DNA of 64,000 nucleotides from Deltaproteobacteria bacterium (GCA_016218825.1 JACRCV010000008.1:1-64000), one strand, 5' to 3'; positions 49,238 through 55,768 are shown, counted from the first letter of the stretch. Translations and numbers: made by a program. The notes: a model not told the origin generated them from the letters alone.

Positions 49238-50386
49238 TCAGGCGCCGCGGGCCTTGACCTCGCGATACGCCCGGGAGAGCGCCAGCGCCGCCCGGCGGAC
49301 GTCATCGGTGGTGGTGCTGCGCCCGAGCGACAGCCGCACCGCGCCCCAGGCCGACGCCTCGGGCACCCCCATCGCCAGCAGCACCGGCGATGGTCGCTCG
49401 CCGCCGTCGTGACAGGCGGCGCCGGTCGACGCCGCGATCTCGGGTGCCGCCGCCAACAGGGCGCTGCCGCGCACCCCGTCGAAGCTGACGTTGAGGGTGT
49501 TCGGCAGCCGCGCGTGCGGCTGGCCGTTGCGGCGGATGCCCGGCAGCTCACGCGCCAGGAGCGTCCACAGCTCCTCGGTGAGGGTCGTCAGGCGCTTGGC
49601 CTCGACCGCCAGGTCGCGCGCCGCGAGCTCGCACGCGGCCCCGAGGCCGACGATGTGCGGCACGTTCTCGGTGCCCGGCCGCAAGCCGCGCTCGTGCCCG
49701 GCGCCGAGCAACAACGGCTTGAGCGGCACGCCGCGACGGACGTAGAGCGCGCCGACCCCCTTCGGGGCATAGAGCTTGTGCCCGGCGATCGACAGCAAGT
49801 CGACGTCGAGGTCGCCGACCCGGGTCTCGATCTTGCCCACCGCCTGCGCCGCATCGGTGTGCATCAACGCGCCGCGCGCGTGGGCGGCGCGCGCGATCTC
49901 GGCCACCGGCATCAGCGCCCCGGTCTCGTTCTGCGCCAGCATCACCGTCACCAGCAGGGTGTCGACGGTCATCGCCGCCGCCACCATCGCCGGGTCGACG
50001 CGACCGTCGGCGCCGACCGGCACCCTGGTCACCCGATAGCCGCACTCCTCGAGGTGACGACAGGGGGCGCTGATCGCCGGATGCTCCACGGTGGTGGTGA
50101 CGATGTGGCGCTCGTCGGGGTTGGCGTCGCAGACCCCGCGCAGCGCGAGGTTGTTGGCCTCGGTGCCGCCGGAGGTGAACAACACCTCTTCGGGCGTGCA
50201 GTCGATGAGCCTCGCCACCTGCGCCCGCGCCGCCTCCACCGCGGCGTGGGCCCGCTGCCCCAGGCTGTGGCCGCTCGAAGGGTTGCCGTACTCGCCGCGC
50301 AGATACGGCAGCATCGCCTCCAGCACCCTCGGGTACACCGGCGTCGTCGCGTTGTGGTCGAGGTAGATGAGGTCCGTCGGGCTCAT
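49238..50386 (-). CDS. Cysteine desulfurase (NifS/IscS family)
   Basis: IYLDHNATTPVYPRVLEAMLPYLRGEYGNPSSGHSLGQRAHAAVEAARAQVARLI...SIAGHKLYAPKGVGALYVRRG (PLP Lys)...STGAACHDG. Confidence 0.96.
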   Translation of the reverse strand: MSPTDLIYLDHNATTPVYPRVLEAMLPYLRGEYGNPSSGHSLGQRAHAAVEAARAQVARLIDCTPEEVLFTSGGTEANNLALRGVCDANPDERHIVTTTVEHPAISAPCRHLEECGYRVTRVPVGADGRVDPAMVAAAMTVDTLLVTVMLAQNETGALMPVAEIARAAHARGALMHTDAAQAVGKIETRVGDLDVDLLSIAGHKLYAPKGVGALYVRRGVPLKPLLLGAGHERGLRPGTENVPHIVGLGAACELAARDLAVEAKRLTTLTEELWTLLARELPGIRRNGQPHARLPNTLNVSFDGVRGSALLAAAPEIAASTGAACHDGGERPSPVLLAMGVPEASAWGAVRLSLGRSTTTDDVRRAALALSRAYREVKARGA

Positions 50387-50416: not shown

Positions 50417-50740
50417 TCAATCCGCGCCTGCCCGGTCTGCGTCCGCCGCGCCGTTCGCCTCGGCGCCCGCGGGGTCCGCGTCGCCCTTCGATCCATCCGC
50501 CGCGCCGCCGTCAGCATCGTCGCCGTCGCCCGCAGCAGCGGGCCGATCTCCGTCATCGACGACCGCCGGGTTGCCGTCGTCGCCGCCGCCCCCGTGGCCA
50601 TTCCCTGGCTCCTGAGGCCCCGGATCTCCCGCGGCCGGGGCCGGGGGGCGGCGACCTTCGGGGAGCGGCACCGTGTCGATCAGGCACGCCGCCGCGAGCG
50701 CGACGAGGATGACGGCGACGGCGAGGACGACGCGGCGCAT
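50417..50740 (-). CDS. Small acidic low-complexity lipoprotein
   Basis: VVLAVAVILVALAAACLIDTVP start; D/G/A-rich C-terminal half. Confidence 0.5.
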   Translation of the reverse strand: MRRVVLAVAVILVALAAACLIDTVPLPEGRRPPAPAAGDPGPQEPGNGHGGGGDDGNPAVVDDGDRPAAAGDGDDADGGAADGSKGDADPAGAEANGAADADRAGAD

Positions 50741-50771
50741 GGTCGGGCCGCAGCCTACCACGCCGGTACGC

Positions 50772-51593
50772 TCACGGACACGCGATGTCGATGCCGTAGT
50801 TGATCACCAGATCGCGCTGCAGGTAGTCGGCGTGCAGGTCCTGCGCCATGTCGGAGGCGTTCACCAGATCGCCCTGATCTGCAGTGCACACGCCGCCGAT
50901 GCCGTTGTCGTTGTGATCCAACAACGCGATGATCTTGTAGCTCCCGGCCGGCACCGCGCTGAAGCCATAGGCCACCGCGGCGCTCGGACTGGAGAAGTCC
51001 TGGGCGCCGAGGTCCAACGTCGCGTTGGCGAAGGGCGCGAGCGCACACAGCGGCGGACAGCTCGAGGTGTCGGCGAACAACCCGACGTAGAGCTTGCCGG
51101 CCAGGTCGGCGGTCGGCGCCCCGAGCAGGGTCGGCGCCCGGCGGACCGTGCCCGCGACCCGATACGCCTGCGCGAGCCCGGTGTTGTCGACGACGAGCGG
51201 CCCGACCGTGTCGCCGATCCCGGAGATCGGCCCGGCGGTCACCCCGACCGACAAATAGACCGTGTCGTGGGCGGCGTACCCCAAGTCCCGCACCGTGTCC
51301 CACACGAAGGTGTGCGGCACCCCGTCCGCTGACGATGCCAGACCCAGGACGATTGGGCTCGTGGCCGCAGCCGTCGCATCCTTCGTGGTCGCGGCGGAGG
51401 TACCCCAACGAAACCCGGCGTTGACCAGGCGGGAGGCCGGGTCGCGCACCAGAAAGCTGACCGTGACGTCGCCGGCGAGCGCCGCGCCACCCAGGCTTAT
51501 CGTCGCCACCGGCACGTCGGGCTCGTCGCCGCTCTGCCCGCAGGCCACGACCGCGAACACCACCATCAGCATCGCCGTGCATCGAGTGCTCAT
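50772..51593 (-). CDS. Lipoprotein, last gene of the ECF/caspase operon
   Basis: MLMVVFAVVACGQSGDEPDV lipobox; GSYKIIALLDHNDNGIGGVC; directly abuts caspase gene stop (51594). Confidence 0.7.
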   Translation of the reverse strand: MSTRCTAMLMVVFAVVACGQSGDEPDVPVATISLGGAALAGDVTVSFLVRDPASRLVNAGFRWGTSAATTKDATAAATSPIVLGLASSADGVPHTFVWDTVRDLGYAAHDTVYLSVGVTAGPISGIGDTVGPLVVDNTGLAQAYRVAGTVRRAPTLLGAPTADLAGKLYVGLFADTSSCPPLCALAPFANATLDLGAQDFSSPSAAVAYGFSAVPAGSYKIIALLDHNDNGIGGVCTADQGDLVNASDMAQDLHADYLQRDLVINYGIDIACP

Positions 51594-53222
51594 CTAGAAG
51601 CTCCACGACGCCGTGGCCAACGCCACGGCGCTCAGTCCCTGCAACTGCCCCAAGAGATAGTCGCCACCGACGCGCAGACCCACCGCCGCACTGTGAACGA
51701 GCCGCAGCCGGGCGAGCCCCACCGCGCCGACGCCGCCCGAATAGCTCTGACGCGCGGTGCTATAAAACGTGCCCGCCGGCGCCCGGCGGACGTACGCGGC
51801 TCCGGCACGGATGCCGGCGCCGAGCTTCAATCGCCCGACCTCGAAGTGCGACAGCACGGCCAGCGCCGCGGTCGCGGCCTGGAGGTCGACGTCGACCGCC
51901 TGGTCGTTGATGCGCCACACGTCGCGGCCGCCGCCCACCTGAACCGTGAGCTCGACGTCGAGGGCGCGGCGCAGCCAGCCTTCGACCCGAAACGCCAAGC
52001 CGGCGCCGCCGAGCAGGTTGCGACGGGCGCCGTAGCGGCTGCCGGGCACCACGAGGGCGCCGAGGTGCAGCTCCAGCTGCCGCGCCGGCTCGGCGCTCCA
52101 CAGGTCGGAGAGCGACAGGGTCTCGCCTTCGCCGACGAAGACCTTCTGCGCCGTGGCTTCGGCCGCGCCCGGCGCCGCCAGCACGATCTCGTGCCAGCCG
52201 GCCTCGACGACGATGCCCCGCGGGAGCGTGCCCTTGTCGGTGCCGTCGACGCGGACGCTGAAGCCCTCGAGCGCCTCGTCATAGGAGAGCAGCACCGGCC
52301 GGCCGCGGCGGTGGCGCCGGCCGGCGAGGACGATTGGATCCTCGCCTTCGACCGTCAAGATCGCGGTCGGCCGCTGGGCGCCGTGCGAAAACCGGTAGGT
52401 CTCCTGGCGCGCGAAGTCGTGCGCCTCGATGACCGAGGTCGCGCCGTCGCCGTTCTCGTCGAAGCCGGCGAGGGCGGCGATGAAGAAGTGGGTGTAGATG
52501 TCGTGCCCGAGGGTGGGATCTTCGCGCGCCGTCTCGCCCCAGGCCGACGCCGACAGCACCACGCTGGCGCTCGAGACCTCGTAGAGGGGACGGACCGGCG
52601 CGCCTTTGACCCCCGCGAGGTAGCGCTGCATCGAGTCGCCGAGCGACGACTTGCCGGCGCCCGAGTAGCAGGTCGCGAGGATCAACACCTTGCGCCGACT
52701 CGCGAGCGCCTCGAAGCGTCGCACCAGCTCGTCGAGCGGCAGCCCGGTCGCGAGCGGCTGGTCGCGGCGCGTGTCCCGCAACGCCACGACCTGCTTCAGC
52801 CCGCCGCCGGCGCCGGTCGCCAAGGTGCCGTGCGTCGACACGTAGACCACGACGGTGTCGGCCGCCGATCCCGTCAGGGAAAGGTCCTCGAGCGCGGCGG
52901 TGACCCGATCCTTGCGACCCTCGACCCCGGTGAGGACCGTGGCGACGAAGCCGCCCGACTTGACCAGGGCCGCCGCGAGATCGCGCGCGTCGGCCTCCGC
53001 GAACGACAACGCCGGAAAGCTCGGGTCGTCGAAGCTCGACACCCCGATCGCCAACAGGCGCCGCTTGCCGCTCGAGCCGCTCGCCGGCGTGCCGGTGCCG
53101 ACGAACACCGGGCCTTTGTCTCCGACCCCGGCTGTGGCCGCGAACGCCTCGACGCCCATGCCGACGAACAGCAGGACCGCGAGCGCGTCTCGAGCCTGTA
53201 AGGAGGGTGGACGCACGCTCAC
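51594..53222 (-). CDS. Secreted caspase-family (C14) protease with C-terminal beta-barrel-like domain
   Basis: RRLLAIGVSSFDDPSFPALSFAEADARDLAAAL; catalytic YVSTHGT (His codon 52830-52832) and LILATCYSGAGKSS (Cys codon 52668-52670); C-terminal amphipathic strands ending ...ALATASWSF. Confidence 0.85.
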   Translation of the reverse strand: MSVRPPSLQARDALAVLLFVGMGVEAFAATAGVGDKGPVFVGTGTPASGSSGKRRLLAIGVSSFDDPSFPALSFAEADARDLAAALVKSGGFVATVLTGVEGRKDRVTAALEDLSLTGSAADTVVVYVSTHGTLATGAGGGLKQVVALRDTRRDQPLATGLPLDELVRRFEALASRRKVLILATCYSGAGKSSLGDSMQRYLAGVKGAPVRPLYEVSSASVVLSASAWGETAREDPTLGHDIYTHFFIAALAGFDENGDGATSVIEAHDFARQETYRFSHGAQRPTAILTVEGEDPIVLAGRRHRRGRPVLLSYDEALEGFSVRVDGTDKGTLPRGIVVEAGWHEIVLAAPGAAEATAQKVFVGEGETLSLSDLWSAEPARQLELHLGALVVPGSRYGARRNLLGGAGLAFRVEGWLRRALDVELTVQVGGGRDVWRINDQAVDVDLQAATAALAVLSHFEVGRLKLGAGIRAGAAYVRRAPAGTFYSTARQSYSGGVGAVGLARLRLVHSAAVGLRVGGDYLLGQLQGLSAVALATASWSF

Positions 53223-54064
53223 CTCTCGGGCGCGCCGGCGCCCGTCACGACCCGGGCGGCGATGCCCACCGGCGTGCCGCCGAGATCGCGCTCGATGAAG
53301 GCCGGCGGCGCCGTGCTCCAGCCGGGTTCGACGGCGCCGACGACCAACGCGACGTCGATGGCCGCCATCGACGCCGCCAGGACAAAGAGATGCGGTCCAG
53401 GCTCGCCGCGGACGTCATAGGCCACGAAGCCGGCCGCGGTGGACAAGCGTCCCGCCCCGGGCGGCGCGGCCTCGACCTCGCCGGCAAACAGCAGCGTCGG
53501 CGCGGTGCCCGGTCGCGCGTGCAGGACGACGACGTGCGCGTCCCGATCGACGCCGTAGCGCGCCTCGAAGACGTGCGCCGCGACGCCCGGCGCCTCCGAC
53601 ACCGCCACGAGCGCCAACGATGCCTGCGGGGCGAGGCGCGCGCCCTTGACCCCGGCGTCCGGCCGGGGGCCGACGGGCAGGCCGACCAGCACGACGAGCG
53701 CCGCCACGGTCGCGGTCGCGAGCCCGGCGAGGCCCCACTTGAGCCCGGCGGTCAGGTCGGCGTCGCCGAACAGCCAGCGCCAGGGACGGTCCTCGACCGA
53801 CGCCGCTCGCGGCGCCGCGGCGCGCGACGTCGTCTCGACGTTGACCCACACGCGCTCGAGGCTCGCTGCAGCCGCGGCCGGCTGCTCGAGCGCGAACAGG
53901 TGCAACAGCAGGGTCTCCTCGTCGAGCCCGGCCTCGGCGAGCGCCGCCGCGCAGTCCGGACAATCGGACTCGAGGTGCAGGGCGAGCTGCTGCCGCAGCG
54001 CCGCCGACAGCGATCCTTGCACCAGGAGCGCGAGGCGCTCCGGACTCAGAATGCAGCGACTCAT
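53219..54064 (-). CDS. Putative anti-sigma factor (zf-HC2-like N-terminus, one TM helix)
   Basis: MSRCILSPERLALLVQGSLSAALRQQLALHLESDCPDCAAAL (H-x3-C-x2-C); TM GLAGLATATVAALVVLVGLPVG; 4-nt overlaps with sigma factor and caspase genes. Confidence 0.72.
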   Translation of the reverse strand: MSRCILSPERLALLVQGSLSAALRQQLALHLESDCPDCAAALAEAGLDEETLLLHLFALEQPAAAAASLERVWVNVETTSRAAAPRAASVEDRPWRWLFGDADLTAGLKWGLAGLATATVAALVVLVGLPVGPRPDAGVKGARLAPQASLALVAVSEAPGVAAHVFEARYGVDRDAHVVVLHARPGTAPTLLFAGEVEAAPPGAGRLSTAAGFVAYDVRGEPGPHLFVLAASMAAIDVALVVGAVEPGWSTAPPAFIERDLGGTPVGIAARVVTGAGAPER

Positions 54065-54678
54065 CGCAGGGCCTCCTCCAGCGGCTGCCGGTCGCAAGAG
54101 GCGGGGACACGGCGTGACAGCTCGACGACGAGCGCCTTCTTGATGTTGTCGCGCACCCGATCGAGACGCGTCGTCACCGTGCTCTGCGGCACGCCGAGGC
54201 GGGTCGCGACCGCGCCGGTCGAATCCAGGCCTTCGACGTAGTAGAGCCGCGCGGTCTCCTTGAGCGGACCGTCGGCGAGGGCGGCGATCGCGCGGCGCAC
54301 GATCTCTTGCCTCTCTGCCGCGGCGAAGACCGCGAACGGGTCGTCGGCCGACCGCGCCGCCGGCTCGGCCGCGAGCTTCTCGGTGCCGCGCTCGTGGCGC
54401 GCGGCCTTGTGCCAACGATTGATCCCGAGGTTCTTGACGGTCTTCATGAGAAAACCACCGAACGCCGCCGGCTCGCGGAGATCATCGAGGCGCGCGAAGC
54501 ACGCGAGCCACGCGTCCTGCAACAGGTCTTCGGCGTCGGCGGTGCGGCCCGAGGTCATGCCGAGCGCCACCCGCATCGCCACCGGCGCGTAGGCGCGAAA
54601 CAGCGCCTCGCGGGCACGCTCGTCGCCGCGCCGCGCCCGCTCCACCCACGCCGCTGTCTCCATCGGCCCCGCCACCAC
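54061..54678 (-). CDS. ECF-type RNA polymerase sigma-70 factor
   Basis: AWVERARRGDERAREALFRAYAPVAMRVALGMTSGRTADAEDLLQDAWLACFARLDDLREPAAFGGFLMKTVKNLGINRWHKAARHE; sigma4 LYYVEGLDSTGAVATRLGVPQSTVTTRLDRVRDNIKKAL. Confidence 0.9.
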   Translation of the reverse strand: MVAGPMETAAWVERARRGDERAREALFRAYAPVAMRVALGMTSGRTADAEDLLQDAWLACFARLDDLREPAAFGGFLMKTVKNLGINRWHKAARHERGTEKLAAEPAARSADDPFAVFAAAERQEIVRRAIAALADGPLKETARLYYVEGLDSTGAVATRLGVPQSTVTTRLDRVRDNIKKALVVELSRRVPASCDRQPLEEALR

Positions 54679-54895
54679 CGCGTTCGCCCTTCGTCAACCA
54701 ACCGCCATCGTGGACGCGCTAACATGCCCACCACCCATCCGGCAACTGTCCCACCCCACGGACAACACCGCCCCGACGCCGGTCCCAACAATCGACCGCC
54801 ACGAACCTCCACAAACCGGCACAAAGAAAGTTGAGACAACCCCCGACGCCCGCGTGTCATTCGGCCGTAACCGTGCTCGAACCCGAGGAGTCATC

Positions 54896-55768
54896 ATGCG
54901 CAACTATTCAATTGTATTTGGTTATTGTCTCGCGGTCGCCCTGCTTGGTTGTGGCGGCGGGAGCGCCGTCGATGGGGGACAAGACCGCGGCCCGACCTTG
55001 ACGACCGGCAAGAGCTTCTCGGTGTCGGGGGAGGCGGCGCTCACCTGTGACCTGAGCTGCGGTGGCGAGCAGGACCAGGCGCTCTCGTATCAGACGCCGT
55101 CGGGGCTGCAGATCGGGGTGACGGCGGTGGAGCTGTTGCGCTCCGCCACCGATCCGAGCCCGCACCGCCTGCTCGCCGCGACCCCCGCCAAAGAGGTCGA
55201 CCTCGTCGCCGGCGCGACCTTCGCAGCGGTGGACATCGGCTCGATCCCCGAGGGCACCTACACCCACATGCAGGTCAGCGTCGCGTGGGTGCGCTTCGAC
55301 GCCGCGGCCACCGCGCACGCGAACGACATGACCATCCCCGGCACCCTCACCGTCGACTACGCGGTGTCGAGCTACGCCGACCCGGCACAGGGACCGCGCA
55401 GCGCCGGCGACTACCTCGCGTCGTTTTGCGCCTTCGGCTCGACCTTGGCCCAAGCCGGCAGTCACCCGGTCGAGTTTCCGCCGCCCTACCCGGGCGCCAC
55501 GGTCGACGCGTCGGCAGGCACCTACCGCGTCCGGTTCGCGATGGCCGACGGGCCGGTGACCATCGATCACGGCTCCCCGACCTCGGTGGACGCCGCGGTC
55601 ACCTTCTACATCGAAGACGCGCTCGGCTGGCGCGACCTCAGCGTCCCGGGCTACACGACCGGGGTGCTGGACCTGGCGCCAGACGCCGCCGCCAGCGAGC
55701 AGCCGGAGTCGATGGCCATCCGGGGCTTCTCGGTGTCGGTCGTCGAGGACGAGGCGCTGACTCCGTAG
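54896..55768 (+). CDS. Secreted lipoprotein, hypothetical
   Basis: MRNYSIVFGYCLAVALLGCGGGS lipobox; divergent from ECF operon. Confidence 0.75.
   Translation: MRNYSIVFGYCLAVALLGCGGGSAVDGGQDRGPTLTTGKSFSVSGEAALTCDLSCGGEQDQALSYQTPSGLQIGVTAVELLRSATDPSPHRLLAATPAKEVDLVAGATFAAVDIGSIPEGTYTHMQVSVAWVRFDAAATAHANDMTIPGTLTVDYAVSSYADPAQGPRSAGDYLASFCAFGSTLAQAGSHPVEFPPPYPGATVDASAGTYRVRFAMADGPVTIDHGSPTSVDAAVTFYIEDALGWRDLSVPGYTTGVLDLAPDAAASEQPESMAIRGFSVSVVEDEALTP

Follow-up and report, generated by a model that had tools for sequence, protein, structure and literature searches.

The locus considered here raises the question of what an exported caspase is doing in the same operon as a sigma factor and its anti-sigma factor, and whether it acts upstream of the sigma factor, as one of its products, or in the death of the cell. 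The window, a stretch of 64,000 nucleotides from a Deltaproteobacteria bacterium (GCA_016218825.1 JACRCV010000008.1:1-64000), carries on the minus strand at 50772-54678 four open reading frames for, in order, an ECF sigma factor, an anti-sigma factor, a caspase and a lipoprotein, at the positions where a sequence-only reading of the window had placed four genes.

Gene arrangement and the sigma, anti-sigma and lipoprotein genes

Each junction within the operon overlaps or abuts. The sigma stop and the anti-sigma start have an ATGA in common at 54061-54064, as had been read, but the second overlap that was called ATGA-type, between the anti-sigma stop and the caspase start at 53219-53222, is of 4 bp and is a GTGA; the caspase stop codon TAG, which ends at 51594, directly abuts the lipoprotein ATG at 51593, as had also been noted, and the tight linkage of the four genes is supported. 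Downstream on the same strand lie a small Gly/Asp-rich lipoprotein-like ORF (50417-50761, minus strand) and a cysteine desulfurase-like gene (49238-50386, minus strand). On the other side, a divergent lipoprotein-like gene (54830-55768, plus strand) adjoins the sigma gene; it has a homologue placed alike in another genome (G002, locus L034) and is a possible second target of the sigma factor.

The first gene (54061-54678, minus strand; GTG start) encodes 205 residues that match Pfam Sigma70_r2 (E 2.2e-11) and, over the cut-off, NCBIfam sigma70-ECF (E 1.2e-19); region 4 matches weakly on its own, and with regions 2 and 4 but without regions 1 and 3 the product is an ECF sigma factor. The product of the second gene (53222-54064, minus strand; 281 residues) has the features of a zinc-finger membrane anti-sigma factor, namely its position beside the sigma gene, an N-terminal His-Cys-Cys motif (H-x4-C-x2-C) and a single predicted transmembrane helix at residues 111-129 (53678-53734, minus strand; hydropathy 2.22) in a place matched in its relatives, from most of which a second hydrophobic peak at residues 227-245 is absent. 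The earlier reading of an anti-sigma factor is upheld by motif, helix and position; the window copy itself matched neither zf-HC2 nor any other anti-sigma model. Among 17 orthologues, zf-HC2 was matched by four (weakly, best 0.003) and DUF4384 by two (also weakly), and the best matches of the orthologue profile in the PDB, with weak E-values, were DdvA and RsiW, both of them anti-sigma factors. One anti-sigma factor of the window's clade (L044, 6171-6998, plus strand) is without the Cys pair of the motif.

The fourth gene (50772-51593, minus strand) encodes 273 residues beginning with a predicted type II signal peptide, in which inspection and a pattern search both recognise the lipobox VVAC at Cys18; it was rightly taken for a lipoprotein, by this sign and by the conservation of its slot in other operons. 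Sequence searches found relatives of it in only three other genomes, in two of which (G002 and G022) they occupy the same place.

Linkage and co-inheritance across genomes

Searched for the caspase, 33 of 58 genomes from the window's phylum, probably that of the myxobacteria, gave matches, and profiles were built from the stretches around these matches together with one MAG contig. The resulting 96 caspases comprise the window's clade, of 29 full-length relatives including the window copy, and another group of 67. In 74 of the 96 an ECF sigma gene precedes the caspase gene on its strand, at a distance of 489-1462 nt, with an anti-sigma candidate between the two in 72 of these 74; the conserved order that the sequence-only reading had expected was therefore found, and the inconsistent linkage that it had named as a reason for doubt was looked for and not seen. 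The 22 caspases without a linked sigma factor consist of nine with less than 1000 bases of upstream contig, seven that are long proteins from a single genome (G011), and six that are unexplained. Long proteins of G011 (L072, L073, L075, L076, L077 and L082; about 950-1190 aa), with a C-terminal caspase domain and no ECF sigma factor nearby, belong to a different family.

Within the window's clade the sigma factor is upstream in all 27 cases where the contig leaves room, and the genomes of the two contig-cut cases hold an orphan clade-type sigma gene near a contig end, in one case with its anti-sigma gene; these are plausibly the missing halves of the two loci. When relatives were searched in reverse with the window sigma factor, the best 17 matches besides itself were all at caspase loci; the more distant sigma factors whose surroundings were examined were mostly without a caspase of the window type. 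A search with DUF4384, in which the caspase was not used, led mostly to sigma/anti-sigma/caspase operons again, two more of them in the window genome. The grouping of the three genes is far beyond chance. Further second-group caspase operons of the window genome are L175, in which a Cys-rich lipoprotein is next to the caspase, L176, and L061, which is cut upstream by a contig end.

Pairwise distances are closely mirrored among the three genes (r 0.931 for sigma/anti-sigma, 0.943 for sigma/caspase and 0.933 for anti-sigma/caspase), and in two-copy genomes each copy has its nearest relatives in other genomes for all three. As copies pair with their orthologues in this way, each caspase travels with its own sigma/anti-sigma pair, as would be expected of a dedicated partner; the mirrored distances support a unit rather than a mechanism, since co-inheritance alone would give them. 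No relatives were found in the viral contigs searched, and a role in anti-phage defence was rejected for want of a relevant PADLOC match. The window operon is a single instance of a type of bacterial signalling operon found across the phylum.

Given that a sigma factor and a membrane anti-sigma factor nearly always stand beside the exported caspase, which is probably anchored in the outer membrane, and that a lipoprotein usually does so too, these caspases probably serve envelope signalling and not cell death. A sigma-controlled protease of programmed death or lysis, as is suggested for Myxococcus metacaspases in PMC3501461, would be in keeping with the caspase family and with developmental bacteria in which autolysis is regulated. 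However, the caspase is exported and has membrane anchors, the operon contains no death-domain partner and PADLOC returned no defence-system match, and we regard this explanation as very unlikely.

A lipoprotein comes next after the caspase in 50 of 72 operons by a lipobox pattern that, applied to control stops of these regions, picks one out after 79 of 358 (22%); under a stricter pattern the figures are 41 of 72 and 51 of 358. The counts are estimates, because the pattern is simple and the stricter form shifts them. The slot is usually filled by a lipoprotein of a different sequence from that of the window, and the idea of an extra peculiar to the window's subclade was rejected, as other lipoproteins occupy the same slot elsewhere. 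At the lipid-bearing Cys, 19 of the 50 slot lipoproteins have the motif CG-x-x-[SDE]-[NS], found in 1 of the 79 controls, and at some loci without a downstream lipoprotein there is a lipoprotein-like gene upstream of the sigma gene instead. It is possible, at a likelihood below even but little short of that of the route proposed below, that caspase and lipoprotein are both outputs: a sigma factor set free when the anti-sigma factor's own periplasmic domain reads a signal would induce a protease for the processing of proteins of the envelope or surface, the neighbouring lipoprotein being an example of its substrates. The caspase does lie downstream in the same operon, the excess of lipoproteins over control stops points the same way, and the proteins that fill the slot vary and are of surface type, carboxypeptidase-regulatory-like domains being present in several. 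However, one caspase is kept per sigma/anti-sigma pair through many paralogous operons in a single genome, and outputs need not stay so strictly paired.

The caspase, its pocket and its predicted barrel

The third gene (51594-53222, minus strand) encodes an exported protein of 542 residues in which a caspase domain is followed by a PEGA-like segment and a predicted barrel. Its export signal (residues about 1-30; 53133-53222, minus strand) agrees with the export-like N-terminus noted earlier and is plain, with no lipobox, the window copy being an exception in a clade of which 26 of the 29 members have an N-terminal lipobox by pattern, compared with only 5 among the other 67 caspases; similarly, a Lys-Gly comes after the hydrophobic stretch in 27 of the 29 and in one of the 67. 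The caspase domain (residues about 55-300; 52323-53060, minus strand) matches NCBIfam caspase model NF047832 at residues 55-272 (E 1.2e-22, under the model's curated cut-off), and 28 of the 29 relatives also matched Peptidase_C14, with E-values ranging from 7.5e-18 to as high as 1. The His and Cys motifs were correctly read as intact: His131 and Cys185 are invariant throughout the 29 members of the clade and the full set of 96 caspases, and by its predicted fold and this dyad the protein is a caspase of family C14. An EF-hand-like loop, DENGDGATSVIE, in the second half of the domain (residues 255-266; 52425-52460, minus strand) recurs as a pattern in 27 of 27 linked clade members, whilst the PEGA-like segment (residues about 319-371; 52110-52268, minus strand) rests on weak matches to PF08308, of E 0.012 in the window copy and, in 9 of the 29 clade members, 4.4e-4 at best.

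The protein resembles the metacaspases and orthocaspases (C14B) in its caspase fold, His-Cys dyad and first pocket Asp (Asp78 by alignment reading), and differs from them in its export signal, its predicted barrel and the residue that precedes the catalytic Cys by two positions, which is Ala in 29 of 29 members of the window's clade and Asp in 67 of 67 others, such that one of the two Asp of the basic P1 pocket is replaced throughout the clade. In the metacaspase TbMC2 an Asp, taken by alignment as the matching residue, helps to hold basic substrates (PMC6426788). In view of that role the cleavage specificity of the clade has probably changed and, with one acidic pocket residue fewer, a cut after Lys is less to be expected there. 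Second-group caspases at L104, L118, L119, L121 and L122 have repeated 'GLVNIG/QIGLVN'-like motifs in their C-terminal part.

The C-terminal part, residues 378-542 (51597-52091, minus strand), ends in Phe and is likely to be an outer-membrane beta-barrel, as had been proposed. Hydrophobic alternation in the family-averaged C-terminus gave a z of 3.8 against shuffled columns and is absent from the caspase domain, OMP_b-brl was weakly matched by 5 of 29 clade members (best E 0.0017), a C-terminal Phe is present in 42 of the 74 linked caspases, and the same C-terminus occurs in both caspase groups, distant operons included (hhalign probability 98.2). The C-terminal profile had no meaningful match in the PDB. 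The earlier proposal thus gains these signatures but not confirmation from AlphaFold, which reached a pLDDT of 41 from three sequences and of 31 for the C-terminus alone, and because these models failed the barrel is one that we infer. Should both of its ends face inward, and with most relatives carrying a lipobox at the N-terminus, the caspase domain would be expected on the periplasmic side and not at the surface of the cell, and the description of the protein as envelope-displayed is probably wrong. Judging from sequence, it is most likely a protease that is tethered in the outer membrane, faces the periplasm and is dedicated to its own sigma/anti-sigma pair.

A predicted barrel protein encoded with an anti-sigma and a sigma factor follows the familiar logic of Fec-type systems, and the caspase fold might accordingly bind and not cut, making the protein an outer-membrane sensor like the non-proteolytic receptor of FecA-FecR-FecI. 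The His and Cys, however, are as invariant as in an active protease, and such a sensor seems improbable.

A proposed route to sigma release

We propose, tentatively and at a likelihood not far short of even, that the four genes work together as a module for signalling from envelope to gene, in which the caspase starts sigma release. The anti-sigma factor would span the inner membrane once, its cytoplasmic zinc-finger-type domain holding the sigma factor inactive and a DUF4384-like domain lying in the periplasm, whilst the caspase would be anchored in the outer membrane by its predicted barrel with the protease domain toward the periplasm, and in most relatives an N-terminal lipid anchor would add to the tether. 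The caspase would be switched on by a signal at the surface, which the neighbouring lipoprotein may present, and would make the initial cut in the portion of its partner anti-sigma factor that lies in the periplasm; a site-2 protease, for which the window genome has family members as candidates, would then free the sigma factor, and this in turn may transcribe its own operon. Some cyanobacterial orthocaspases have DUF4384 and caspase domains fused (PMC7475262, PMC8283722).

Such a route would be akin to RpoE-RseA-DegS/RseP of E. coli in its ECF sigma factor, single-pass anti-sigma factor, proposed envelope protease and site-2 protease family in the genome, and unlike it in that the protease has a caspase fold instead of being of the HtrA serine type, is encoded in the same operon and is probably in the outer membrane. 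Fec-type systems of cell-surface signalling likewise encode an outer-membrane barrel (here predicted), an anti-sigma factor and an ECF sigma factor together, but here the barrel protein bears a caspase domain. A caspase-like protease also adjoins ECF54-type sigma factors, in the form of CHAT-protease neighbours (PMC8999054); these are described without an anti-sigma factor, whereas operons of the window type nearly always have one. Nor is the operon wholly new, as the sigma-metacaspase linkage has been known, in passing, since 2012: Asplund-Samuelsson et al. (2012; PMC3501461) give sigma-70/metacaspase operons, very likely of the same kind, in 4 of 5 M. xanthus cases and in Anaeromyxobacter, Haliangium, Sorangium, Ralstonia and Fibrobacter. 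The text of that paper mentions the sigma factor alone, describes neither export, barrel, lipoprotein slot nor clade split, and gives no test of function; a search largely outside subscription journals found no published description of the anti-sigma factor, barrel, slot or split.

Were the caspase to control the sigma factor, many of the caspases in multicellular, predatory bacteria would act in signalling and not as enzymes of death, and dozens of natural protease/anti-sigma pairs would be available from which to read out substrate and signal. Both the DUF4384 domain and the lipoprotein slot would then have a suggested role, and in the clade with the changed pocket residue the evolution of caspase specificity could be tested directly.

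In its fullest form, that of an outer-membrane-tethered caspase serving as the dedicated first-cut protease of its anti-sigma factor, repeated several times per genome and in one clade departing from basic P1 specificity, we consider the proposal rather doubtful. Genes in sigma operons are often outputs, which counts against the proposed route, as do the altered P1 pocket and a barrel lacking model support. The same is true of the promoter search, in which the upstream regions of 27 sigma genes shared no ECF motif and had words of the GGAAC type at the shuffled level, and of a Lys-Gly pair that occurs where no caspase adjoins. This pair, Lys140-Gly141 (53642-53647, minus strand), is next to the membrane and is the most conserved point of the predicted periplasmic part of the anti-sigma factor; among the 17 orthologues Lys140 is invariant and Gly141 nearly so, and Lys-Gly stands beside the transmembrane helix in 25 of 27 and 40 of 45 linked anti-sigma factors. 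It is also kept in one sigma/anti-sigma pair of the window genome without an adjacent caspase, which weakens its reading as a caspase-specific cut site and means that it may be structural. At L173 (G000:C18, 6454-7784) the window genome has a sigma factor and a DUF4384-type anti-sigma factor with no caspase downstream, and an ABC-transporter-like ATPase gene lies nearby.
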